A stretch of 64,000 nucleotides of DNA, taken from Chloroflexota bacterium. Its GTDB lineage: Bacteria; Chloroflexota; UBA6077; JACCZL01. Positions 1,553 to 64,000 of the stretch are shown one piece after another. The stretch lies in the NCBI GenBank assembly GCA_020850535.1, contig JADZEM010000079.1:1-64000 (forward strand), read 5' to 3'. The notes below the pieces were generated by a model. The model had not been told where the DNA came from, did no database searches, and saw nothing but the letters and a program-made list of their open reading frames with translations. How positions within the stretch are numbered: the stretch's first letter is position 1; the number at the start of each line of letters is the position of its first letter. The translations under genes were made by a program, and so were the position numbers.

Positions 1553-2785
1553 GTGCTCGCTAACACCAAACGGTCGTCCACCTGGCTCCGGACGCCGCTC
1601 TCACCAGAGCAGCGGTTCTTGCTGGAGTGCGTCCGGCGCAGTTGCGGTGTGGAGGCTCGTCCGCTGCCGGCCGTGCAGCAGTGGACCCTGCTCATCCAGT
1701 GCGCGACCACCCAGACCGTGTTGCCGGCGCTCGACGCCGTCCTCCAGGATGAGCAACAGGTTGCCCCAGACGACGTGCGCCGCCTGGTGCATCTCGGGGC
1801 GGCCCTCGCCGTGGAGCAGCGGCTGCGCGTTCAGGATCCAGGTGTCCGCCTGACGCTCCAAACCCTGGTTGACGCGGGCTGTGATCCCGTCGTCCTCAAG
1901 GGCGCCGCCCTGGCCTACACCCGCTACCCGAATCCGGCCTCGCGCCTCTTCTCCGATGTTGACGTGCTGCTGCCGGAGCACCAGATCGGCAGGGCGGCAA
2001 CGTGCCTGGCGCAGGCGGGCTATACGTTGGTCCCGGGGCCGGCGCTTCCTGCTGCTCATCAGCACCTGCCGCCGCTCCAGCCGCCCGACCACTCGATTGC
2101 CGTCGAGCTGCATCGTGGGCTGGTCGAGGACACCGCTCCGTACCGCGTAGAGATCGGTGCGATGCTCCAGCGCGCCCGCCCGGTGAGCATCCTCGGCGTC
2201 CCGGTCCGCGAGCTCGATCCGGTCGACGCGCTGATCCACGTGAGCGTGCATCTCTCCTACGGGCATCGCTACACGCGCATGCCCATCCGCTCGCTCGCCG
2301 ATATCCTGGCCCTCACCAGCCACGATCGCATCGACTGGCCCGAACTGGTCTCGCGGGCGCGAGCGGCGCACGTCAGTGGCGCGGTGATCTGGCCGCTGGC
2401 CCTGGCGCGCGGCTGGCTCGGCGCGCCGGTCCCGCACGCGGTGCTGGCGCAGCTCGCACCGCCGCGCCCCCTCACCAGGGTGTTGACAGCCCTCTTGCGG
2501 ACCGGTTCGATCCTTGACCCCTCGCTCGTGCCAGACGACGGCAGCCGTGTCCTGCACGATACGGCCGTCGAGCTGTCGCTGGTCAGCGGCTGCTCGGCAC
2601 GCACGCAACTCGCCACCCTCGCGCAACGGCTGCTGCCGGGGCCACACCGCGTGACCCATCTCCAGCCCGTCGAACAGACATCCCCAACGGCGTATCTTCG
2701 CGCGATGTTGCGACCGGAACGTCTTTCAAGGGGCGTGCGAGCAGCGCTCGACACGGTGCGCGCAACACGCGAGCGACTGCGCTGA
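1553..2785 (+). CDS. Nucleotidyltransferase family protein (NTP_transf_5 type)
   Basis: This 410-residue protein carries the signature of the uncharacterised NTP_transf_5 nucleotidyltransferase family: LKGAALA (about 115-121) followed by SRLFSDVDVLLP (about 130-141), where the two Asp residues of DVDVL would bind metal. The rest is a helical region with a conserved HxSYGHRY-like stretch near residue 240. Such proteins often occur beside PqqD-like carriers and HprK-related kinases in peptide-modification loci, which matches the next three genes. The substrate is unknown. The start is a GTG at 1553 without a clear ribosome binding site, but the family usually begins shortly before an LSPEQRFLL-like helix, which fits. 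A gap of 164 bp separates it from the next gene. Confidence 0.8.
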   Translation: MLANTKRSSTWLRTPLSPEQRFLLECVRRSCGVEARPLPAVQQWTLLIQCATTQTVLPALDAVLQDEQQVAPDDVRRLVHLGAALAVEQRLRVQDPGVRLTLQTLVDAGCDPVVLKGAALAYTRYPNPASRLFSDVDVLLPEHQIGRAATCLAQAGYTLVPGPALPAAHQHLPPLQPPDHSIAVELHRGLVEDTAPYRVEIGAMLQRARPVSILGVPVRELDPVDALIHVSVHLSYGHRYTRMPIRSLADILALTSHDRIDWPELVSRARAAHVSGAVIWPLALARGWLGAPVPHAVLAQLAPPRPLTRVLTALLRTGSILDPSLVPDDGSRVLHDTAVELSLVSGCSARTQLATLAQRLLPGPHRVTHLQPVEQTSPTAYLRAMLRPERLSRGVRAALDTVRATRERLR

Positions 2786-2949
2786 CGGCGCCGCGCTGGC
2801 GACTGGCGTTGTGACGGGCAGTTTTCTAACAGTCTTGTGAAAAGTCACCGAAAATCACCCATTTTGCCACCTTGAGTTGTGCATGACTACGACGAGCGCG
2901 CTAGACTTGAAGGGTAAATCACGAACTCTGAGTAGCGGGGAAACTGATC

Positions 2950-3261
2950 ATGAGTTCAGACCAGCCGGCATCGACGGATCACTCGGGCGGTTCGGCGGAC
3001 AACGCCGCCAGGCCGGAGGGCAAGTCCAGGCGAGGCCGTCGAGCCGTCCTGAAGGGGACGCTCGCAGCGACGGGCGGCCTCCTTGCCGCGAGCTACGTTC
3101 AGCCTGAGTTGCGGACATTCGGCAGCGCCACCGCCCATGCTGTTGGGTCGATCGACCGCTCCCATGGCCGGGTCGCACCGATCCAGCAAGAGCATGCCCC
3201 AGACAAGCCGCGACGCCGCGCCGATGTGCCAGGGCTTCCGCTGCCCCCTCGCGGCCACTAG
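2950..3261 (+). CDS. Small Tat-signal protein, candidate modified peptide or exported partner of the PqqD/HprK unit
   Basis: The 103-residue product has a twin-arginine type leader: a polar N-terminus, GRRAVLKG, a hydrophobic stretch LAATGGLLAASYV, then PELRTFGSATAHA with a plausible signal-peptidase AxA site near residue 65. The remaining ~38 residues are rich in Arg, Pro and His, contain no Cys, and end in LPLPPRGH. Codon third positions are strongly GC throughout, so the tail is a real coding frame. A purine-rich site (CGGGGAA) sits 7-8 nt before the ATG. Its position between a nucleotidyltransferase and PqqD/HprK-like genes makes it the natural candidate substrate of that unit; this is inference. 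It has no obvious lasso-peptide ring pattern. It could instead be an unrelated small exported protein. Confidence 0.7.
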   Translation: MSSDQPASTDHSGGSADNAARPEGKSRRGRRAVLKGTLAATGGLLAASYVQPELRTFGSATAHAVGSIDRSHGRVAPIQQEHAPDKPRRRADVPGLPLPPRGH

Positions 3262-3387
3262 TTCGGCCGGGGTGCTCGTCGCCCCGCCAGCCATGAGATT
3301 CTCGCGCGCCGGTGCGTTGACGCGCCGATGCCGCCTGGATGTCCCCCCCGCGGGACGCAACGGACACGGAGACGCGAACGCCCGCGC

Positions 3388-3663
3388 ATGCTCGATCCAC
3401 GACGACGCTCCGAGATCGAGACGGCGACGCTCGATGACCACGTCATCCTGATCGACGTCACGTCCGGCGCATATCACACCCTCAACCACACGGGCGCGGT
3501 CATCTGGGACTGGTGTGATGGCACACACTCTGTCGAGGAGATCGCGCGCGGCCTCGCCGCGACGTACGGGATCGGCGTCGAGCTTGCCCAGGTTGACGTG
3601 CTCCATGTGCTTGCACAGTTGAAGCGGGCAGGACTTCTTGAAGATGCCAGGGCGTCCGCGTGA
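3388..3663 (+). CDS. PqqD family peptide-binding protein
   Basis: The 91-residue product has the PqqD fold signature: a strand pair around VILIDVTSGAYHTLNHTG, then VIWDWCDGTHSVEEIA, a helix ending in YGIG, and a C-terminal helix VLAQLKRAGLL. PqqD-like proteins bind leader peptides and present them to modifying enzymes, both in PQQ synthesis and in many RiPP systems (lasso peptide B1 proteins, HPr-rel-A systems). An in-frame ATG at 3328 would add 20 residues with poor codon bias, so the ATG at 3388 is preferred; neither has a strong ribosome binding site. It lies 21 bp before the HprK-like gene and is probably co-transcribed with it. The likely client is the Tat-leader protein just upstream. 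Confidence 0.8.
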   Translation: MLDPRRRSEIETATLDDHVILIDVTSGAYHTLNHTGAVIWDWCDGTHSVEEIARGLAATYGIGVELAQVDVLHVLAQLKRAGLLEDARASA

Positions 3664-3684
3664 TGCGGGCCCCCGCCTGACGCG

Positions 3685-4563
3685 GTGACGGCCAGCCATT
3701 CTGGGGCGACGGCCGAGCACGAGCCGGGGCGCGTCACGCTGGCCCTCTTGAGCGCCCGCGTGGACGTCGTCGGCCCATCACCCATGGTGCAAGGCGTGGC
3801 CGCGCTGTTTCCGCCGCCGCCACCGTGGCTGATCGAAGCGCCGGCGGGCCTGCGCACCACGGTGACCGTCGAGCGGGACGCCGACACCCACGGCCGGTAC
3901 CATGTGCGCTCCGGCGACGATCAGTGGCTCCTCACGAGCATCGGCGACGCACAGGCGAGTGCCGAAGCGCTCGTCACCACGGCGCTCGCCGAGCAGCTAC
4001 GTCACCGGCTGCTGCTCATCCATGCGGGAGCGGTCAGCAACCAGGACGCCTGTATCCTGTTTCCTGGGCCGTCAGGCAGCGGCAAGAGCACCCTGGTCGC
4101 GGCGCTGGTCGCCAGCGGGATGCGCTGCTTCGGGGACGACGTGGTCCTGTATGACCGAGAGCGCCAGCAGTGCCTGCCGTTTGTCCGGAGCATCACGCTG
4201 AAGGCGGGCAGCCCGACGCTGTTGAGCCAGCAGTGGGGCCAGCAGATCGAGGAACCGGCCGCCGCTCGTTTTGGCGAGACGCCGGTCACCTTCCTGACGC
4301 CATCGGCGGATGCGTGGCCGGCTGCGCCGCTGCCCGTGCGCTTCGTGGTCGTGCTGGAGCGGCAACGGGGCGTGACGGCGCACCTGCGTCAGCTCTCGCG
4401 CATCGAGACGCTGACGCTCCTCCTGAGCCAGTGTTTCAACCACGGCACCCTGGGAGCAGCCGCCGTCCACGCCGCGCTCGATCTCCTGCGGGGCTGTGCC
4501 TGCATGGCGCTGACCTACGACGACCTCGGCGAGGCCGTTCGGCTCGTTCGCCGGCTGTCGTAG
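3685..4563 (+). CDS. HprK-related serine kinase-like protein
   Basis: The 292-residue product contains an HPr-kinase-like P-loop: HAGAV (about 113-117), Walker A GPSGSGKST (128-136), and DDVVLYD (151-157) at the position of the metal-binding acidic segment. The C-terminal half has the beta/alpha layout of HprK-related proteins, with FVVVLERQ and CFNHG segments. True HprK phosphorylates Ser46 of HPr in sugar control, but no HPr or PTS gene is present here. HprK-related kinases next to PqqD genes belong to peptide-modification systems; in some lasso pathways they phosphorylate the precursor. Start is GTG at 3685, 21 bp after the PqqD stop. The substrate is unproven. Confidence 0.8.
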   Translation: MTASHSGATAEHEPGRVTLALLSARVDVVGPSPMVQGVAALFPPPPPWLIEAPAGLRTTVTVERDADTHGRYHVRSGDDQWLLTSIGDAQASAEALVTTALAEQLRHRLLLIHAGAVSNQDACILFPGPSGSGKSTLVAALVASGMRCFGDDVVLYDRERQQCLPFVRSITLKAGSPTLLSQQWGQQIEEPAAARFGETPVTFLTPSADAWPAAPLPVRFVVVLERQRGVTAHLRQLSRIETLTLLLSQCFNHGTLGAAAVHAALDLLRGCACMALTYDDLGEAVRLVRRLS

Positions 4564-5113: not shown

Positions 5114-8100
5114 CTACGGGGTTGGGTAGGTCGCCGGCAGGCCGAGCTTGAAGCGGCGAATCGAGTAGGCCGTGGTGTCGATGGTCACGGACGACGCCGT
5201 ATGGAAGCCATCGGTGTAGTCGATGCCGGCGAGGCTCGTCGGATTCACCGTCAGATCGATCACGTCGGTGTACCATTGGGCCACGCTGGCATCGTAGTAG
5301 CTGGCGCGGACACGCAGCTGCGTGGCGGACACCTGGTCCCAGCGCGTACGGATGATGTCTCCCGCCTCCGGGATGTGGCTCCCGCCGCCGATTGAGGCCG
5401 TTGGCAGCGGCCACTCGGCCAGGATCGTCGGGCCGCTGCCGTTCCAGGCCTCGAAGACCAGCCCGACGTTGCCGCCCCCGCGACCGATGGGGATGATCTC
5501 AAGGTTCTGCTCGCGGTTGATCTCCTTGCGGAAGCCAACCATCGGCCCGAAGTAGGTCCCGTTTGCGGGCTGTGTCGGCGGCGTCCCGTTCGGCCAGCCG
5601 ATCTCGATCTCCGCCCAGCCGCTGGTCAGCGTCGGCATGCGGTCGATGTTGCGCCCTGACTGCAGTCGGTCCGTCGCGCTGTACAGGCCATGCGTACCGA
5701 CGAGCCGCAGGTCGTTCGCCCAGGTCGTCCAGTCGATCTGCCACTGGACGCCGCTCTGCGTTCGGTAGTCTTGCTCCTGCACGTTGGCGGTGGACCGCCC
5801 ATCCGGACCGGTTGGCAGTGCGGCAGTCCCGGCCGGCCGCCACTCGTCCACGTACACGGAGAGCGCATCCGCGCTGTTGGTCTCAACGATGCCGATGGCG
5901 GACTGGTCGTAGGTCTCGGATTGCATCCGCCCCTGGTGGTACCAGCCGTAGAACGACCCGTCGATCAGGAAGGCAAAGGCGCGCTTGACGCCAGGGCCAG
6001 ATTGCGTGTGCAGGCCCAGCTCCAGGTCAAACCAGCGGTCGCGGGGGACCTGGCCGTACACGCGGAACTCGATCGGCTGGTTGTCCCAGTCACGCTGGCC
6101 CACGGCGTACAGCTCGCCGCCCTGTCGTACCCGCAGCGACCAGCCGTAGCCGGCCCCACTGGCCCACATGCGGCCAACGGTCAGGTACTCGGAGGCCCCG
6201 AGCGCGTTCACGGTCGCCGATGGCACGTACACGCTGGCGCGCTGCCACCGCCAGGTGCCCGGCCGCTCTTGCCAGGTGTGGCTGCCCGCGGCATCGGTGA
6301 ATCCCACGCGGACGGAGGCTGTGCTGCCGCTGCCACTGGTGGTGGCCAGGGCCGAGAAGCTGCCGCCGGCCGCCGGGATCGCCGAGCTTCGCTGGACCGC
6401 GCCGGTCCCGCTGACACCCGTGGTCACCTGCCAGCCGCTCGCCGCCTCAAAGCCTTCGAGCACCGTCCCGCCGCCACCGGTGGGTGTGTTGGTTGGCGTG
6501 GCGACCGTGGTCGGGGTTGATGTGGCCGTGGGGGTCCGTGTCGCGGTCGCGGTTGCGGCCGGCACGCCGGTGGCCGTGGGGGTCCGTGTCGCGGTCGCCG
6601 TGGCCGGGGCGGTCGTCGGCGTCACGGTTGCTGCTGCGCCACCCACCACGAAAGCGTCAACGCCGACAAAGTAGGCGCTGGACGCTGCCTGCTTGGTGCG
6701 GGTGACGCCCACGCGGATCGTGTGCGCGCCCGGTGCGACGGTGTAGGTCGCCAGCTTTTGCGCCTGGGCCGTACCGTACTGATCGAGGACCGCTACCTGA
6801 TTGCCGTCGATCAGGATCTGCGCCTGTCCCCGGTTCGAGTCCTGGCGGTACATCAGCGAGATCGTGGTCCCCGTGAACGAGAAGGACGCCGCATCGCCGC
6901 CGAACTCGCCCGCGCGCTCCGAGCCGCCAAATGCGGTGGCATTGGTCTGGGTCGGCCACCAGCCGGTGAAGGTGATCTGCGCGCTGGTGCTGTCCACCGT
7001 CGTGCCCGTCGCTGGCGTGGCAGTTGCGGTGGCTGTCGCCGCTGTCGTGGCCGTCGCCGTTGGCGTACGGGTGGCAGTGGCGGTGGCCGCAGGCGGCACG
7101 GTGTTGCTTGGCGTGGGTGTCCGCGTTGCCGTCGGCGGTACAGCGGATGTGGCCGTCGCGGTGGGGGGCGCGGTGTTCGTCGCTGTCGCCGTCCTGGTCG
7201 GCGTCCGGGTTGGCGTCGCAGTCGCCGCCGGCACCGTCGTGTTGGTGGCCGTCGGCGTGCGCGTCGCCGTGGAGGTGGGCGCGGTCGTCGGCGTTGGCGT
7301 CGAGGTCGGCGCGGCGCCTCCGGCGACCCGGAAGGCGTCTACGCCGACGAAGTAGCCTGACGACGCGGTCTGCTTGGTCCGCTGTACGACCAGGCGGAGC
7401 GTGTGCGCGCCCGAGGTGACGGGATACGTCACCGCGGTCTGGGCCTGGGACGCGCCGTACTGGTCCAGCGTTCCGACCGCCGTGCCGTCGATCAGCACCT
7501 GTGCGCGGCCCCGGTTCGTGTTCTGTCGATACACCACCGTCACGGACGAGCCGGTGAATGGGAACGAGACGGCGTCACCGCCGAACTCGCCGACCCGCTC
7601 CGAGCCGCCGATAGCCGCCGCATCCGTCTGAGTGGGCCACCAGCCGGTGAAGGTGATCTGCGCGCTGGTGCTGTCCACGGTGGTGACCGGCGGCGGCGTC
7701 GCCGTGGCCGCCGCCGTCGCGCCGCCAAATGGGGTGGACACGCTGGCCCACGCCGGGTCAGCCGCCTCGGTGGCGGACGTGAGGCCGAGCGTCAGCGGGC
7801 CAGCGTTCCCAGATGCATCGGCGGCCGCCTGCCCCGTTCCCTCATCGAAATGGTAGAGCGCGAGGGTCGTCGCATCGGGATCAAACGGCCCGGACAGCGG
7901 GGTGAACGCCGCCGTGTAGCGCAAGCCTGAGGAGATCCGCAGCTCGTCTACCTGCCCGCCAAAATACGGAAATGACGCATAGCCGCCCATGCGGAGTGGC
8001 AGGCAGTTGCCGCAGGTGCTGATCTGGCCGACATCGCCGGCCGCACCGGGCGTGCCGTTGACGTAGACCTGGCCGAGCCGCGTCGTCGGATCGTATGTCG

Positions 8101-8578
8101 CGGCGACGTGATACCAGGAGCCGGCCAACAACGTCACGGCCGTATTCGTGACCGAGCGATCCGTCGTGCCATCGGCCACCCAGAGCGTCACCTGGCCGTT
8201 GGACAGCTCCAGCAACCAGCCTTGATTGTCGGCATCATTTCGCGTAAAGACGATGGTGCCATTCTCGGTGCTTGTAGCGGGCGAGACCCATACTTCGACG
8301 GTCTGACGACCCTCTTGACCGGCAAAGGCAGATCCGGTCGCACGGGATGTGTTGCCATCAAAGATCAGCGCACTGTCGGACGATGTCTGATAGACCGCGC
8401 TGGAGCTGCTTCCACGAAGTGCCAGCCGTGAGTCGATGTGCGCACCGGATGCCCCGCGATTGAGCGCTGAGGCGTCTGCGTCAGCTTGCCCGAACACCAG
8501 CGCCCCAAGCGTAACGACCACCATCACCGCAAGGATCCGTTGATACACGAGCAATACACCCACGCTAGCCCTCCACAT
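5114..8578 (-). CDS. Large secreted LamG-domain surface protein with two GWWPTQ domains
   Basis: This protein of about 1,150 residues starts with a signal peptide (VYQRILAVMVVVTLGALVFG then ADADA). A LamG/concanavalin-A-like domain follows (about 70-270; TVEVWVSP, WYHVAATYD, VDELRIS). Two GWWPTQ beta-domains lie at about 297-420 and 525-645, each followed by a Thr/Pro linker. A C-terminal region of ~450 residues (about 700-1154) has many beta-strands and Trp residues (WRWQRASVYVP, RDRWFDLELGLHT) and may hold one or two further jelly-roll domains; I do not recognise it firmly. No catalytic motif is seen. The ATG at 8578 contains the ribosome binding site GGAGGG for a GTG at 8563, so translation may start there. 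It is transcribed alone and ends at the terminator at 5044-5093. Confidence 0.85.
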   Translation of the reverse strand: MWRASVGVLLVYQRILAVMVVVTLGALVFGQADADASALNRGASGAHIDSRLALRGSSSSAVYQTSSDSALIFDGNTSRATGSAFAGQEGRQTVEVWVSPATSTENGTIVFTRNDADNQGWLLELSNGQVTLWVADGTTDRSVTNTAVTLLAGSWYHVAATYDPTTRLGQVYVNGTPGAAGDVGQISTCGNCLPLRMGGYASFPYFGGQVDELRISSGLRYTAAFTPLSGPFDPDATTLALYHFDEGTGQAAADASGNAGPLTLGLTSATEAADPAWASVSTPFGGATAAATATPPPVTTVDSTSAQITFTGWWPTQTDAAAIGGSERVGEFGGDAVSFPFTGSSVTVVYRQNTNRGRAQVLIDGTAVGTLDQYGASQAQTAVTYPVTSGAHTLRLVVQRTKQTASSGYFVGVDAFRVAGGAAPTSTPTPTTAPTSTATRTPTATNTTVPAATATPTRTPTRTATATNTAPPTATATSAVPPTATRTPTPSNTVPPAATATATRTPTATATTAATATATATPATGTTVDSTSAQITFTGWWPTQTNATAFGGSERAGEFGGDAASFSFTGTTISLMYRQDSNRGQAQILIDGNQVAVLDQYGTAQAQKLATYTVAPGAHTIRVGVTRTKQAASSAYFVGVDAFVVGGAAATVTPTTAPATATATRTPTATGVPAATATATRTPTATSTPTTVATPTNTPTGGGGTVLEGFEAASGWQVTTGVSGTGAVQRSSAIPAAGGSFSALATTSGSGSTASVRVGFTDAAGSHTWQERPGTWRWQRASVYVPSATVNALGASEYLTVGRMWASGAGYGWSLRVRQGGELYAVGQRDWDNQPIEFRVYGQVPRDRWFDLELGLHTQSGPGVKRAFAFLIDGSFYGWYHQGRMQSETYDQSAIGIVETNSADALSVYVDEWRPAGTAALPTGPDGRSTANVQEQDYRTQSGVQWQIDWTTWANDLRLVGTHGLYSATDRLQSGRNIDRMPTLTSGWAEIEIGWPNGTPPTQPANGTYFGPMVGFRKEINREQNLEIIPIGRGGGNVGLVFEAWNGSGPTILAEWPLPTASIGGGSHIPEAGDIIRTRWDQVSATQLRVRASYYDASVAQWYTDVIDLTVNPTSLAGIDYTDGFHTASSVTIDTTAYSIRRFKLGLPATYPTP

Positions 8579-9794: not shown

Positions 9795-10319
9795 ATGTTT
9801 CGTGCGCGCGCGGCTTTGCCGCTGGCCGGCCTCGCCTCGGTGCTGGTCATCGACCGGTTCCGCCAACGACGGTGGCCGCTCGTCATCGCGGGGCTGTTGG
9901 ACGAAGCGGGACACGTCGTCACCGCGCTGCTCACGCACTGCGCGTTCGCGCTGCCACGCTCGCGGATGAGCGTCGGCGGCACGCTGGCCGGGGCGACGCT
10001 CCTCGACGCCGATCACGTTCCGCACCACCTCGGGTACCGCATCCTCACGTCCACGACCGAACGGCCCTTGACCCACTCAGCCGTGTCGGTCGGCCTGGTT
10101 GCGGTCACCGCCGCGCTCGCTCCGCGTCAGCTCCGCTGGCCACTCGCCTGCGCGGCCATTGGCGCGGGAACCCAGCTCATCCGGGACATGGGCACCGGAT
10201 CGGTCCCGCTGATCTGGCCCGTCTCGCGGTCCGAGTTTCGCACGCCGTATCTGGTGTACATCGCCTACCTCCTGCTGTGCGTTTGCCTGATCGTGCGGGG
10301 CGAAAAGACGACGAGCTAA
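9795..10319 (+). CDS. YdjM-like (DUF457) membrane-bound metal-dependent hydrolase
   Basis: The ~174-residue protein has three to four membrane segments and the His/Asp pattern of the YdjM/DUF457 family: LLDEAGHVVTALLTH near residue 35, LLDADHVPHHLGY near 75, and ERPLTHSAVSVG near 95. These residues would bind a metal near the membrane face; the reaction of the family is not known. The ATG at 9795 has GGAGG with 7 nt spacing, better than the ATG 6 nt earlier or the GTG at 9633. The gene is enclosed by a perfect 61-bp inverted repeat, so it may have moved as a cassette. It has no obvious partner among its neighbours. Confidence 0.7.
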   Translation: MFRARAALPLAGLASVLVIDRFRQRRWPLVIAGLLDEAGHVVTALLTHCAFALPRSRMSVGGTLAGATLLDADHVPHHLGYRILTSTTERPLTHSAVSVGLVAVTAALAPRQLRWPLACAAIGAGTQLIRDMGTGSVPLIWPVSRSEFRTPYLVYIAYLLLCVCLIVRGEKTTS

Positions 10320-10515
10320 TACTCCACCACGCAGAAGGCGGCGTCGTACCCGTCATCCCGAGCGGAGCGAGCGTGCGAGCAGAGTGGAGGGATCTTCCCC
10401 GTTGTGGCTACGTGAGGAAGATCCCTCCACTGCGTTCGCACGCTCACGTCGTTCGGGATGACGGGGGAAGCGTCGAGTAACCCGACCCGGTCGTTCATGG
10501 CTGACAGGCCACTGG
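10320..10515. repeat. Palindromic dispersed repeat, copy 3 (right arm of the inverted repeat)
   Basis: It starts at the last base before ACTCCACCACGCAGAAGGCG and contains CGTCATCCCGAGCGGAGCG at 10351, GGGATCTTCC, GGAAGATCCC and TTCGGGATGACG. It ends with GGTCGTTCATGGCTGACAGG, the reverse complement (one mismatch) of the beginning of copy 1 at 1059. The bases 10516-10642 after it hold no gene. Confidence 0.8.
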
Positions 10516-10608
10516 GCTACGCCCGTCAGGCCACCGCGTATCAGCGGGCGACGCCCCGCACAGGCGCCGCCGCCCGGCGAACAGTTGCCCATTGCCGCCA
10601 GCGACGCA

Positions 10609-10626
10609 GCCGGCCGCTCGGCCGGG
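10609..10626 (-). terminator. Possible GC-rich terminator hairpin after the copper-oxidase gene
   Basis: CCGGCCG and CGGCCGG pair around two bases, 17 bp after the stop codon at 10643. There is no T run, so this is only a weak terminator candidate. Confidence 0.3.
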
Positions 10627-10642
10627 TATCCCGGCGCGACGC

Positions 10643-13429
10643 CTACAACCCGCGGCCAGAGTACTGGCGTCTCCCAACGCTCGGTTCGTCGATCGGTCCG
10701 GCCGCGACGGCGGTGGCCGTTGGCATGCGCGTCGCCGTGGGTGTAGCGGCGGGCGTGGAGGCGAGGGTAGCGGTGGGCGTCTGCGGCGCACCGTCCACGA
10801 TGACGGCGTCAATACCGACGAAGTAGCCGCTCGACGTGGTCTGTTTGGTGCGATTGATCACGATGCGCAACGTGTGCGGGCCGGGCGCCACCCCGTAGGT
10901 CGCCGTCTTCTGCGCCAGGGATGGGCCGTACTCGTCCAACATCGCCACCGCCACGTTGTCGATCCGAATCTGTGCGCGTCCCCGGTTTGTGTTCTGGTGG
11001 TAGACCACCGTAACCGACGATCCGGTAAACGTGACAGCCGCTGCGTCACCCCCGAACTCTCCCACACGCTCCGAGCCGCCGATGGCGGCGCTGTCGGTCT
11101 GCGTGGGCCACCAGCCGGCAAACGCGATCTGGCTGCTGGTGCTGTCGATGGTGACGCCTGGAGCCGGCGTCGGGGTCAGGGTCGGCGTCAGCGTGATGAT
11201 CGGCGTCAGCGTCAGCGTCAGCGTCTGGGTTGGGCTGGGAGCTGGCGTCGCCGTTCGTGTGGCCGTGGCGGTTGCCGGCGGTGTGGCAGTCGCCGTGGGC
11301 GTCGATGTCTCCGCCGGGGCGACGGTCGCGGTCGGTGTGGCCGTGGCCGTCGGCACTGTCGTGGGGGTGGTGGTTGCCGTGAGCGCCAGTGTCGCCGTCG
11401 GAGCAGCCATCAGCGTTGGTGTTCTCGTGCTCGTCATGGTTGGCACTGTCGTTGCCGTGGGCGTGCTGGTCCCGACCGGCGGGCCGCTCGCCCCGAGGAT
11501 CACCGCATCCACGCCGACGCCATATCCTGATGAGCCGGCCTGTTTGGTGCGGTTCACGACTACCCGCAGCGTGTGGACGCCTGGGCCGGCGCTGTACGTC
11601 GTGGCTCGCTGGCTCTGCGCCCCGCCGAACTGATCCAACATGTCGATGGGCTGTCCGTCCAGCCAGATCTGTGCCTGGCCTCGGTCGGTGTCCTGGCCGT
11701 AGACCAGCGTGACAGACGTGCCAGTGAAAGCTACGGTTGCGCTGTCGCCGCCGAACTCGCCGATCCGCTCCGAGCCGCCGATGGCGCTCGTATCGGATCG
11801 TGTCGGCCACCAGCCTGCGAACACGAGCTGGCTGTCGGTGCTGTCGATGGTGGTGACCGGTGGAACGGTCGGTGTGGGGCGCTCGGACACGACGATGGCG
11901 CCGGTCATGCTCTGGTGGATCTTGCAGACGTAGGTGTACGTGCCGGGCGTCGTGAACGTCTGGCTGAACGAGCTGTCCGGCGTGAGGAACCCGGAGTCCC
12001 AGAATCCTCCGCTGCTGGTGGCGGAGTGGGTACGGTCGTGCTGATTCGTCCAGACGACGGTGTCGCCCACGAACACGTTTTGCGTCCGCGGTTGGAACGC
12101 GAAGCTGGCGATGGTGACGCCCACGGTGCTGCCCGTTGGCCCTGTCGGAACGGTCGCCGTCGCCGAGGCGGTTGGCGTCACGGTCGGGGTTGTGGGCGGC
12201 GTCGCCGTCAAAGGGCTGGTCGGCGTTGCCGTCAGGGGGCTGGTTGGCGTCGCAGTCGGGAAGACGCCGCCGGCGGGATCGCCGTCGAAGACGCTCACGT
12301 CGTCGAACACGACGGCCCCATTGTTCTGCATCCATGACACCGGCGCGAACCCGAGTGCCAGCGACGCCGGCAGGTCGGTGTGGGTGCCCGCGCCTGCATC
12401 GAGGACCGAGTGGACTTCCACGCCGTTGATGAAGAACGTGAGGCGCGCATCCTCATGCCGACCGTCGAAGACGATGGCCAGGTCGTACCACTGCCCCGCC
12501 TGATAGGCGACCGGCGTCGGCATCGTTCGCAGCACGCCGTCTCGCGTCGTGAAGATGGCGCTGAAGGTGCTTGCGCCGAGTGCGAAGCCGGCACGTGTCA
12601 CCCAGGCGTTTGGCCCACGGGTGTTCAAGGCCATGATGCGGGCCTGGGACTGGATCCGGGTGGCCTCGGGCGTGAACCGGGCGCGCGCGTACAGCACGTG
12701 CGAGGCCGGCCACGTCAGCGGCCGCTCGACCAGCGCCTGCTGTCCCGAGGTCTGGGTCTGGGTCGCCATGCGGGCGGCCTGCGTACCCGCGCCGACCGGG
12801 GCGTGTACCAGCTCGACGACCGCGCCGCTGCCCTGCATCACTGGCGTCCAGCCACCATCGGCAAAGGCCGTCGCCTCGAAACCATCGGCGATGGTGGCCG
12901 GCCCGGTCGCGGCCGGCGCCTGTGCGTCGCTGGGCGGCGGGGGCGGTGAGGTCGCCGTGCCACCGGAGATCTGGAGGATGCTGGCGACGGACGGCACGCC
13001 GCGATCGCTCATCAGGAACAGCATGTAGGCGCCCGGCGGTGCGACGTGCGGATTCGCGGGCACGGTGAACTGGACGCCGCCGGCCACCTGGGTCAGCGCG
13101 ACAGGCAGCCGCACTTGATCCGAGTTGATCGAGTGCGTCACCGACGCCATCCGGACCAGCACCGCGCCCGACAGGCTCGCCGCGCTCGGCGTCTGAACCT
13201 CCACCGCTTGCCCGTGCACGGCTGCACTCGGCGCGCTGGCAATCGTCGGACGGGGTCCTTGGAAGAGGTACGCCGGCGAGTAGAGCTGCGCCGTTGGGTA
13301 GTCCACCGCTGGCGGAAACCGCCCGCCACCAGCACCCGGCCATCCTGCAACAAGCTGGCGGTGCTGTGATACATCCGCAGATCCTGCAGCGACGGCAAGG
13401 TCGTCCAGGCTTCGGTGGCTGGATCCCAC
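10643..13429 (-). CDS. Distal part of a frameshifted galactose-oxidase-like protein with LamG-like, cupredoxin and two GWWPTQ domains
   Basis: The true coding part begins near 13330, where the oxidase continues from the other frame: DYPTAQLYSPAYLFQGPRPT, then the galactose-oxidase C-terminal domain with SVTHSI (the His is the fourth copper ligand) and VAPPGAYMLFL. Then come a LamG-like jelly roll (about residues 195-400), a Thr/Pro linker, a cupredoxin domain (about 437-517), and two GWWPTQ domains (about 525-648 and 760-880) with linkers. The cupredoxin shows a type 1 copper set: His in RTHSAT, then Cys, His and Met in YVCKIHQSM. Fusion of a copper-radical oxidase with a blue-copper domain suggests electron transfer or copper supply at the cell surface; this is inference. 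The first ~33 residues of the frame are out-of-frame sequence. Confidence 0.8.
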   Translation of the reverse strand: MGSSHRSLDDLAVAAGSADVSQHRQLVAGWPGAGGGRFPPAVDYPTAQLYSPAYLFQGPRPTIASAPSAAVHGQAVEVQTPSAASLSGAVLVRMASVTHSINSDQVRLPVALTQVAGGVQFTVPANPHVAPPGAYMLFLMSDRGVPSVASILQISGGTATSPPPPPSDAQAPAATGPATIADGFEATAFADGGWTPVMQGSGAVVELVHAPVGAGTQAARMATQTQTSGQQALVERPLTWPASHVLYARARFTPEATRIQSQARIMALNTRGPNAWVTRAGFALGASTFSAIFTTRDGVLRTMPTPVAYQAGQWYDLAIVFDGRHEDARLTFFINGVEVHSVLDAGAGTHTDLPASLALGFAPVSWMQNNGAVVFDDVSVFDGDPAGGVFPTATPTSPLTATPTSPLTATPPTTPTVTPTASATATVPTGPTGSTVGVTIASFAFQPRTQNVFVGDTVVWTNQHDRTHSATSSGGFWDSGFLTPDSSFSQTFTTPGTYTYVCKIHQSMTGAIVVSERPTPTVPPVTTIDSTDSQLVFAGWWPTRSDTSAIGGSERIGEFGGDSATVAFTGTSVTLVYGQDTDRGQAQIWLDGQPIDMLDQFGGAQSQRATTYSAGPGVHTLRVVVNRTKQAGSSGYGVGVDAVILGASGPPVGTSTPTATTVPTMTSTRTPTLMAAPTATLALTATTTPTTVPTATATPTATVAPAETSTPTATATPPATATATRTATPAPSPTQTLTLTLTPIITLTPTLTPTPAPGVTIDSTSSQIAFAGWWPTQTDSAAIGGSERVGEFGGDAAAVTFTGSSVTVVYHQNTNRGRAQIRIDNVAVAMLDEYGPSLAQKTATYGVAPGPHTLRIVINRTKQTTSSGYFVGIDAVIVDGAPQTPTATLASTPAATPTATRMPTATAVAAGPIDEPSVGRRQYSGRGL

Positions 13430-61782: not shown

Positions 61783-64000
61783 CTAGAAGGCGGACGCGCC
61801 TCCACCAACAAAGGTTGACCACTCGCCGCAGCCGTCCGTCACGGTGATCGGGACCGTGACCGCGCCGGGCGCGGTCCGGCGAATGTAGAACTTCACTTCA
61901 GCCGCTGCCGAGGTCGGGCGGTAGACCGAGTCGGCGCGCAGGCTCGACGGCCCGCCCGGGAAGTCAATCGCCACATTCGAGGCGCTCTCCCCCGCTGCCT
62001 GGAAGTCGATGGCCGTGATATCCCCGCACGAGTCGCCGCTGGCCGCGAGCGCAGCAGCGCTCTCCGTCCGCGCGGCCTCGGTGCTGATCGTGACGGCCAG
62101 CCGGCCGGAGCCTGCCGGGGCCGTGGTCACCTTGATCCGGGACGTGCGGGCCTTCTTCGTCGGCGTGGGTGTCGGCGTCGGTGGCGGAACCGGGGTCGAG
62201 GTCGGAACCGCTGTCGGCGAGGGCGCGGGAGCCACGGCCACCGCCGTCCCGGTGACGATGAATCCATCAACGCTCACGGCGTACCCAGACGATGCCGCCT
62301 GCTTGGCTCGGTTGACGACCACCTGGAGGGTGTGCGCCCCAGGCGTCACCGAGTAGGCCACGGACTGCTGGCTCGCCGACGAGCCGTACTGGTCGATCTG
62401 CCCCACGGCGACCCCGTCGATGTAGACGGTCGCCGTGCCGCGATCCGTGTCCTGTCGATACATGACCTGGACTGCCGAGCCCGTGAAGGTCAGCGCCGCG
62501 GTTGCGCCGCTGGTGCTGCTCAGGTGCTGCGACCCGGCCAGTGCCGCGCTGTCCGCCTGGGAGCCCCAGGTTCCGGCCCAGGTCAGCCAGGGGCTGCCAT
62601 CGTCCACCGTCGCCTTCAGCAGCGAGCCGATCGACGGCATGAAGTCGGCCGGGCTGTTGGCGACGATGAAGGCGTCAACACCCACGAAGTACCCGGCTGA
62701 CTGCGCCTGCTTGGTGCGGAGGACCCTCACCTGGATGGTATGGGTGCCGGGCGCGGTCACGTAGGTGATCGCGCGCTGGACCTGGGACGGACCGTACTGA
62801 TCGATCTGCTGGACGAGCTGGCCGTCGATCCTGACCTGCGCCTGGCCCCGGTCGATATTCTGGCGATAGATCAGTGAGATGGTCGCGCCCGTGTAGGTCA
62901 TGGAGACCGAGTCGCCACCGTACTGGCCGATGCGCTCCGTGCCGCCCGTCGCACCCGCGTCCGTCTGGGTGGGCCACCAGCCCGAGAAGCTCAGGCTTCC
63001 ATGATCGTCGTCAAACGTCGTGGGGGTTGCCGGGGCGACCGTTGGCGTCGCCGTGGCCGGGCGCGGGGTTGAGGTGGAGGTGGCCGTCGGCGGGACCAGC
63101 GTCACGGTAGCCGTGGCTGTTGCCGGAACCAGCGTCGCGGTAGTCGTGGCCGTCGGCGGGACCGTCGTCGCGGTGGACGTTGCCGTTGGGGGAACCGCCG
63201 TCGCGGTCGATGTAGCGGTTGCTGGGACCATCGTCGCGGTAGCCGTGGCCGTCGACGTAGCGGTTGCCGGAACCAGCGTCGCGGTAGCCGTGGCCGTCGG
63301 CGGGACCAGCGTCGCGGTAGCCGTGGCCGGCGATGTTGCCGTTGGCGGGACCGTCGTCGCGGTAGCCGTGGCCGTTGGCGGGACCGTCGTCGCGGTGGAC
63401 GTGGCCGTTGGGGGAACCGCTGTCGCGGTGGACGTTGCCGTTGGCGGAACCAGCGTTGCGGTCGGGGATGGCGTACGGGTTGCCGTGGCCGTTGGCGCAA
63501 GCGTGTTCGTCGGCGTCGCCGTTGCGGTTGGGGAGGGCGTTCGCGTCGCCGTGGCCGTTGGCAGAAGCGTGTTTGTCACGGTGGCCGTTGGCAGAAGCGT
63601 GTTTGTCACGGTGGCCGTTGGCGTCGACGTTGCAGGGAGCGTTGCCGTGACCGTCGGCGTGGACGTCGTCGCCGAGGTAGCGGTTGGTGTCGGGGCGCTT
63701 CCGCCGACGACGATGGCGTCAACACCGACGTAGTACCCCGTCGAAGATGTCTGCTTCGCACGGTTCACGATGATCTGCAGCGTGTGGTTTCCAGGAGTCG
63801 TCGTGTAGGTCGTGCTGGTCTGGGCCTGCGTCGTCCCGTACTGGTCGAGGATGCCGACGCTGGTGCCATCGATCTTGACGCTTGCCATGCCACGGTCGGC
63901 GCTGCGCTTGTAGACGACCGACACGGACGTGCCGCTGAAGGTGAACGAGGCGTTGTCGCCGGCATACTCGCCCACACGCTCCGAGCCGCCATACGCGCCG
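61783..64000 (-). CDS. Secreted surface protein with three GWWPTQ-type domains (5' end outside the window)
   Basis: The frame is open at the right edge, so the start is not visible. From its left side it has one domain cut by the edge ([19 protein letters not shown], then [11 protein letters not shown]), a ~210-residue Thr/Pro linker built of 12-residue units ([11 protein letters not shown]), a second domain ([20 protein letters not shown]), and a divergent third ([20 protein letters not shown]). A short linker leads to a C-terminal ~100-residue domain that ends in FVGGGASAF. This last domain is shared with the protein at the left edge. Function beyond surface display is unknown. A hairpin follows the stop codon. 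Confidence 0.82.
63020..63680. repeat. 36-bp minisatellite encoding a Thr/Pro linker
   Basis: Imperfect 36-bp units (core GCCGTTGGCGGGACC, GTCGTCGCGGT) repeat within the gene, coding for twelve-residue PPTATxTATxV units on the minus strand. The region is likely to change in copy number. Shorter linkers of similar DNA occur in the other four surface-protein genes. Confidence 0.75.

Follow-up and report, generated by a model that had tools for sequence, protein, structure and literature searches.

What might a nucleotidyltransferase, a PqqD-type recognition protein and an HprK-like kinase do together beside a protein that carries a twin-arginine (Tat) leader? The four genes lie on the plus strand at positions 1553-4563 of the window, the 64,000-nucleotide stretch of Chloroflexota DNA analysed here. 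A sequence-only reading had proposed a minimal peptide-modification locus that might phosphorylate or nucleotidylate the Arg/Pro/His-rich tail of the Tat-leader protein.

The window locus

The gene order is PF14907 nucleotidyltransferase, Tat-leader protein, PqqD/RiPP recognition element (RRE), HprK-related kinase. All four open reading frames (ORFs) were verified, and the family assignments of the sequence-only reading stand. Leader residues are counted from the Tyr (Y) of the YxxPxL motif.

1553..2785, plus strand: PF14907 nucleotidyltransferase, 410 residues (Pfam, 133 bits; cut-off 31.2)
1898-1972, plus strand: conserved KG...DVD stretch of the nucleotidyltransferase (motif position)
2950..3261, plus strand: Tat-leader protein, 103 residues, putative substrate (ORF; leader-profile match of 73 bits)
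3037..3051, plus strand: twin-arginine motif RRAVL of the leader (sequence; alignment of 14 leaders)
3094..3123, plus strand: YVQPELRTFG, fitting the lasso-type RRE-binding motif YxxPxL...G (PMC10368454) (sequence)
3094-3111, plus strand: YVQPEL, the YxxPxL part, as in lasso precursor leaders
3133..3141, plus strand: AHA, the AxA site predicted for signal peptidase (all 14 leaders have its last Ala, Y+15)
3148..3150, plus strand: Ser67 (Y+18), candidate phosphate acceptor (Ser at Y+17 or Y+18 in 12 of 14 leaders)
3388..3663, plus strand (ORF opens at 3328): PqqD/RRE, 91 residues (PF05402, 65.3 bits; cut-off 23.4; coding signal)
3685..4563, plus strand: HprK-related kinase, 292 residues (TIGR04352, below cut-off; motifs; tree)
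4066-4095, plus strand: kinase P-loop GPSGSGKSTL (sequence motif)
4132-4155, plus strand: kinase GDD motif GDDVVLYD (sequence motif)

Several curated models were matched below their thresholds. The kinase reached 109.9 bits against HprK_rel_A (TIGR04352; equivalog cut-off 200), PqqD 25.5 bits against PqqD_rel_X (TIGR04353; cut-off 35) and the leader 10.6 bits against TAT_signal_seq (TIGR01409; cut-off 16.7). The Tat leader is present even though it falls under the last of these cut-offs, with a twin arginine, a hydrophobic stretch and an AxA site. Four of its relatives (L112, L114, L113, L026) exceed the TIGR01409 threshold. As first described, the locus has no radical SAM enzyme, B2 protease or Asn-synthetase cyclase among the called genes at 1-10 kb, judged by eye. 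None of the four proteins matched the MNIO family in a Pfam scan of these four.

The leader, the kinase and PqqD from about 3388 have supporting coding signal; between about 3130 and 3360 the signal is weak. Since the signal begins near 3370, the PqqD start is most likely 3388 and not 3328. The 39-residue Arg/Pro/His-rich tail of the Tat protein has low coding signal in every frame. No meaning should therefore be attached to its composition, and the tail is a doubtful conserved product of the gene. As the target of modification it gives way to the Ser after the predicted cleavage site, which is the better candidate.

A repeated domain (ITFTGWWPTQ...) is common to large proteins with Thr/Pro linkers at 3-1058, 5114-8563 and 61783-63999. 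The first 127 bases of the window contig (1-127) equal the start of contig C77, which points to a repeated gene at which the assembly broke. Intergenic positions 1080-1370 hold recurring GGTCGGGATGAC-like units that resemble a dispersed repeat.

Recurrence in Chloroflexota

Six genomes have the leader adjacent to PqqD and HprK, and leader-PqqD-HprK is the usual order. The window kinase, used as a query, identified five positive genomes among 400 of the phylum, its own included. Three of these (G019, G199 and G168) have, upstream on the same strand, an ORF with a Tat leader that ends in Y(V/I)(K/T)P. Nine full-length matches came from 301 genomes searched with a five-row leader profile, and all other Tat matches stayed below 26 bits. 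Four of the nine had not seeded the profile; the window's genome has two of these, and G199 and G041 have one each. In G041 the leader adjoins PqqD and a kinase of divergent sequence, a PF14907-like gene follows after some 4 kb, and this cassette was first found by its leader alone. The cassette of G301 was first known by its kinase alone and the leader was found afterwards. There, an ABC transporter, the leader and PqqD occupy one contig end, the kinase and a sugar transferase occupy another, and the two ends overlap by 44 identical bases.

The 158 genomes of G168's class include four with leaders (G168, G301, G452 and G453); in the class of G199, as sampled, only G199 has one. A scan of genome contigs with the window HprK gave no match, a second scan returned the G301 locus only, and a final search of three genomes added nothing further. 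No relatives were found on plasmids. Judged from sequence, the cassette is real and recurrent in part of Chloroflexota, and its function is one that we infer. Two records deserve a remark. The G019 kinase gene (L024:5364-6206, minus strand) runs across two frames, an interruption due to decay or to a sequencing error. Locus L061 carries the public label Rubrobacter sp. and is the same contig as C195 of G301; as G301 is assigned to the phylum of the window, label and placement disagree.

The partners also occur apart. Tat proteins without PqqD or HprK in relatives, which the sequence-only reading named as counter-evidence, do occur in part: leaders lie far from the pair (contigs C143 and C211 of the window's genome, C52 of G199, C132 and C488 of G301), mostly in genomes that own a cassette. 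In the leader-bearing draft genomes G452 and G453 (89% and 78% complete), no PqqD was detected. PF14907 is found near a cassette only in the window and in G041. Sugar-transferase or glycosyltransferase genes are neighbours at several loci.

The window's genome, with four PF14907 and four PqqD matches, illustrates the range of related loci. Contig C223 (L010) encodes a complete lasso cluster with its own PqqD, B2 protease, cyclase, two precursors, kinase and transporter. Within that cluster (L010:295-8622), the two precursors are nearly identical and the PF14907 gene is divergent. We tried the idea that the window cassette is simply a truncated lasso cluster and discarded it, since B2 and cyclase are also missing from this cassette in distant relatives. 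One PqqD-HprK pair with no leader nearby is on C42, beside acetyltransferase-like genes, and another is on C5, in the order kinase-PqqD. Such leaderless pairs, at L012:976-4437 and L013:12728-14728 by acetyltransferase-like genes, may serve the orphan leaders or belong to other systems. Upstream of the C5 pair, a plus-strand ORF (L013:11453-12598) ending in YVAPLLVRHGPVQRHTLGGGSFNP resembles a lasso precursor.

Leader anatomy

Fourteen leaders from eight genomes were aligned. Thirteen leaders place the Tyr 19 residues after the twin arginine, and one places it 18 residues after. All 14 have the Tyr, a Pro at Y+3 and an Ala at Y+15; position Y+5 holds Leu, Met, Val or Ile, and Y+9 holds Gly in 11 leaders and Arg in three. 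Twelve of the 14 have a Ser past the predicted cleavage site, at Y+17 or Y+18; both G199 leaders lack it. This count was reached in 0 of 20,000 within-protein shuffles and, with one leader per genome, the mean p was about 5e-5 (largest 0.002), although the shuffles ignore kinship and the two positions were chosen after looking. Conservation of Tyr and Pro arises partly by selection, because the five leaders that seeded the profile were found with a YxxP pattern. That pattern does not demand the twin-arginine spacing, the Ala or the Ser; the later leaders, however, were found by profile. The motif is present in none of 24 matches of a generic Tat search, a set that includes several near-identical proteins and a few likely non-signals.

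The register recalls lasso leaders. Lasso precursors carry YxxPxL at -17 to -12 (PMC10368454), and the Tyr of the Tat leaders would stand at -16 if cleavage occurs after AxA. The lasso precursors of these same genomes carry the same block, and in the window's genome one pair agrees at 8 of 16 positions. By its alignment, the leader is a special subtype of Tat signal with the nearly fixed geometry RR / YxxPx(L/M/V/I) / Ala. The proposal that the Tat-leader protein is the substrate of PqqD and HprK is strengthened by the adjacency in six genomes and by this lasso-type RRE motif in nearly fixed register.

The YxxP block might instead be a lineage-specific form of Tat signal, with PqqD and HprK acting elsewhere, on a glycan or an unrecognised small peptide, and with a neighbourhood of merely historical origin. 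Orphan leaders, the leaders of G452 and G453 without detected PqqD, and the sugar-transferase and glycosyltransferase neighbours would fit such a history. The repeated adjacency in mostly one gene order, and a motif and spacing that agree with lasso leaders, would not, and we regard this explanation as unlikely while giving it real weight.

The mature parts vary and include Ser/Pro or Thr/Pro repeats, a GYW-containing domain and Cys-containing domains. Most leader proteins are long repeat or domain proteins with 150-500 mature residues; those of the window, L113 and L115 are short. The weak coding signal between about 3130 and 3360 could be read as decay, the system being real elsewhere and the window substrate gene having lost its mature domain, all the more as many relatives have mature parts of at least 150 residues and tightly packed genes. 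We think this decidedly improbable: the leader, PqqD, kinase and nucleotidyltransferase frames are open with motifs intact, and L113 and L115 share the short form. The short mature parts, together with RiPP-type enzymes, could also suggest a small secreted RiPP, in which the tail itself is the modified product and serves as a signal or antimicrobial. The predominance of long proteins and the absence of a dedicated leader peptidase or cyclase make this a very faint prospect.

Some leader proteins end in sequences resembling LPxTG/LPxAG sorting signals. Two proteins of the window's genome (L057:6127-7791 on C143 and L058:5788-6930 on C211) combine the same leader with long Thr/Pro repeats, an Asp run and a sortase-signal-like C terminus (LPVAGQAG plus a hydrophobic stretch), with no PqqD nearby. 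Similar C termini are LPSAGAGG (L026:9828-10772), MPNTGSGG (L113:3612-3944) and LPNTGAGG (L115:7454-7744), two of which have no hydrophobic stretch after the motif.

Recognition protein and kinase

The PqqD model is confident and adopts a winged RRE fold. Its closest structures are the lasso B1 proteins TbiB1 (5v1u/5v1v; TM-score by target length 0.85-0.86) and also 6jx3, all solved with leader peptides. AlphaFold2 models of in-frame leader-PqqD fusions through the TAG stop (window and L025) retained a confident RRE, with the leader undocked and its region of low confidence. A mixed alignment of leaders and PqqD misplaced the leaders and was excluded from folding.

The window kinase keeps the P-loop and the following acidic DD motif, as in HprK-like peptide kinases. 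In the kinase tree, its group (support 91/92) also contains the C42 kinase and four further leader-associated kinases; the three lasso kinases and a group of seven other kinases lie outside it. The long branch of the G041 kinase is placed elsewhere. Resolution in the PqqD tree is weak, and leader-associated PqqDs do not form a separate clade.

PqqD could be a mere chaperone of the Tat signal that delays export, with an HprK-like protein that does not phosphorylate the leader protein. The motif does sit within the signal peptide, and other exported RiPPs have been proposed to have their signal peptides masked (PMC12452194). Yet PqqD and HprK are paired beside the leader in 6 of 6 cassettes, a Ser is conserved by the cleavage site and the kinase motifs are intact, which leaves little room for this option.

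Proposed export-coupled modification

We suggest that the cassette is an export-coupled protein-modification unit, assembled from lasso-tailoring parts and acting on the Tat-leader protein, and we hold this to be somewhat better than an even bet. The proposal builds on the recurring cassette, the leader geometry, the conserved Ser, the RRE fold and the intact kinase motifs, all visible in the sequences; from these we infer binding, phosphorylation, sugar transfer and their order relative to export. Cytoplasmic PqqD would bind the YxxPxL...G motif in the signal peptide and thereby also mask the Tat signal. PqqD would then recruit the HprK-like kinase, which would place a phosphate on the Ser beside the future cleavage site (Ser67 in the window). 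Where a PF14907 enzyme is present, it may move a sugar (or nucleotide) onto the Ser phosphate. PqqD would finally depart, Tat would export the marked protein and signal peptidase would trim it. Given the restriction of nearby PF14907 genes to two cassettes, sugar transfer is an optional step at best.

Known chemistry makes this mechanism a natural one. PqqD-type BsfB1 strongly speeds phosphorylation of BsfA at Ser3 by the HprK-like kinase BsfK (PMC10368454), and a kinase with a nucleotidyltransferase yields phosphoglycosylated pseudomycoidin (PMC8498205). By the latter example, kinase action followed by sugar transfer is likelier than the nucleotidylation first suggested for the locus. Several observations argue against certainty. 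Joint mutation of Y, P and L to Ala in the lasso precursor BsfA did not abolish phosphorylation (PMC10368454), the fused models are undocked, and there are orphan leaders, leaders in G452 and G453 without PqqD, and leaderless PqqD-HprK pairs.

G168 is almost surely Thermobaculum terrenum, judging by its lasso PqqD, which matches TbiB1, and its GT41 protein, which matches PDB 5djs. The gene for this O-GlcNAc-transferase-type protein (L026:11862-13451, minus strand) matches 5djs over 529/529 residues, a structure that we take from this match to be T. terrenum OGT (TtOGT). Two Ser/Pro-rich leader proteins are encoded about 1.1 kb away, at L026:8958-9758 and 9828-10772. The T. terrenum OGT is a cytoplasmic enzyme that has been crystallised, and no in vitro activity was seen with the peptides tested (PMC4683255). 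The two proteins are suggestive candidates for its native substrates. The link is no stronger than that because G301 has no GT41 gene between its ABC transporter and leader.

A wider reading is conceivable, although we lean against it as a whole. The leader would be dual in function, a Tat signal of fixed length that is also the RRE-binding leader, and PqqD would be the export gate. Secreted or surface proteins of Chloroflexota would be phosphorylated, and some glycosylated, by the cleavage site before export, and TtOGT may act on the two Ser/Pro-rich T. terrenum leader proteins. If true, RRE-guided modification would extend from small peptides to exported proteins. There would be a concrete route for coupling modification to Tat export, a problem raised for other RiPPs that bear signal peptides (PMC12452194). 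Likely substrates would be named for a PqqD-HprK pair related to HPr-rel-A, and the crystallised T. terrenum OGT would gain native candidate substrates. A literature search covering few subscription journals returned no paper joining HprK, PqqD and nucleotidyltransferase, and none naming HPr-rel-A.

Comparison with known systems

TorD/DmsD-type redox-enzyme maturation chaperones offer one parallel, as cytoplasmic proteins believed to keep a Tat signal bound until maturation is complete. PqqD is of an unrelated fold, and the RRE of the cassette is paired with a kinase. Bufferins and other MNIO substrates, including the DUF2282 precursors of DUF2063-type RREs, resemble the cassette in carrying an export signal on the precursor. 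With such a signal on a RiPP precursor, modification must precede export (PMC12452194, PMC12710340). The MNIO/DUF2282 systems differ in using Sec signals and MNIO enzymes where the cassette has Tat, the YxxPxL motif and a kinase, and no RRE recognition motif is predicted for DUF2282 precursors (PMC12710340). HPr-rel-A (TIGR04352/TIGR04353), like the cassette, joins an HprK-related kinase to a PqqD-family protein, whereas both cassette proteins fall under the curated cut-offs and a Tat-leader substrate lies beside the pair.

The lasso B1, K and N module (BsfB1/BsfK, paeninodin kinase, pseudomycoidin kinase and nucleotidyltransferase) shares with the cassette a PqqD-type RRE, an HprK-like kinase and a PF14907-like nucleotidyltransferase, and the YxxPxL motif stands at a nearly equal distance from the cleavage site. 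Unlike the module, the cassette has no B2 protease (transglutaminase-like) or cyclase, both of which are present at C223, and its substrate is a putative Tat-exported protein with AxA cleavage that is often long. Under the tests that define these systems, the cassette qualifies neither as HPr-rel-A nor as a lasso cluster, but its make-up suggests that it would act on Tat-exported proteins in the manner of the lasso B1/K/N module.
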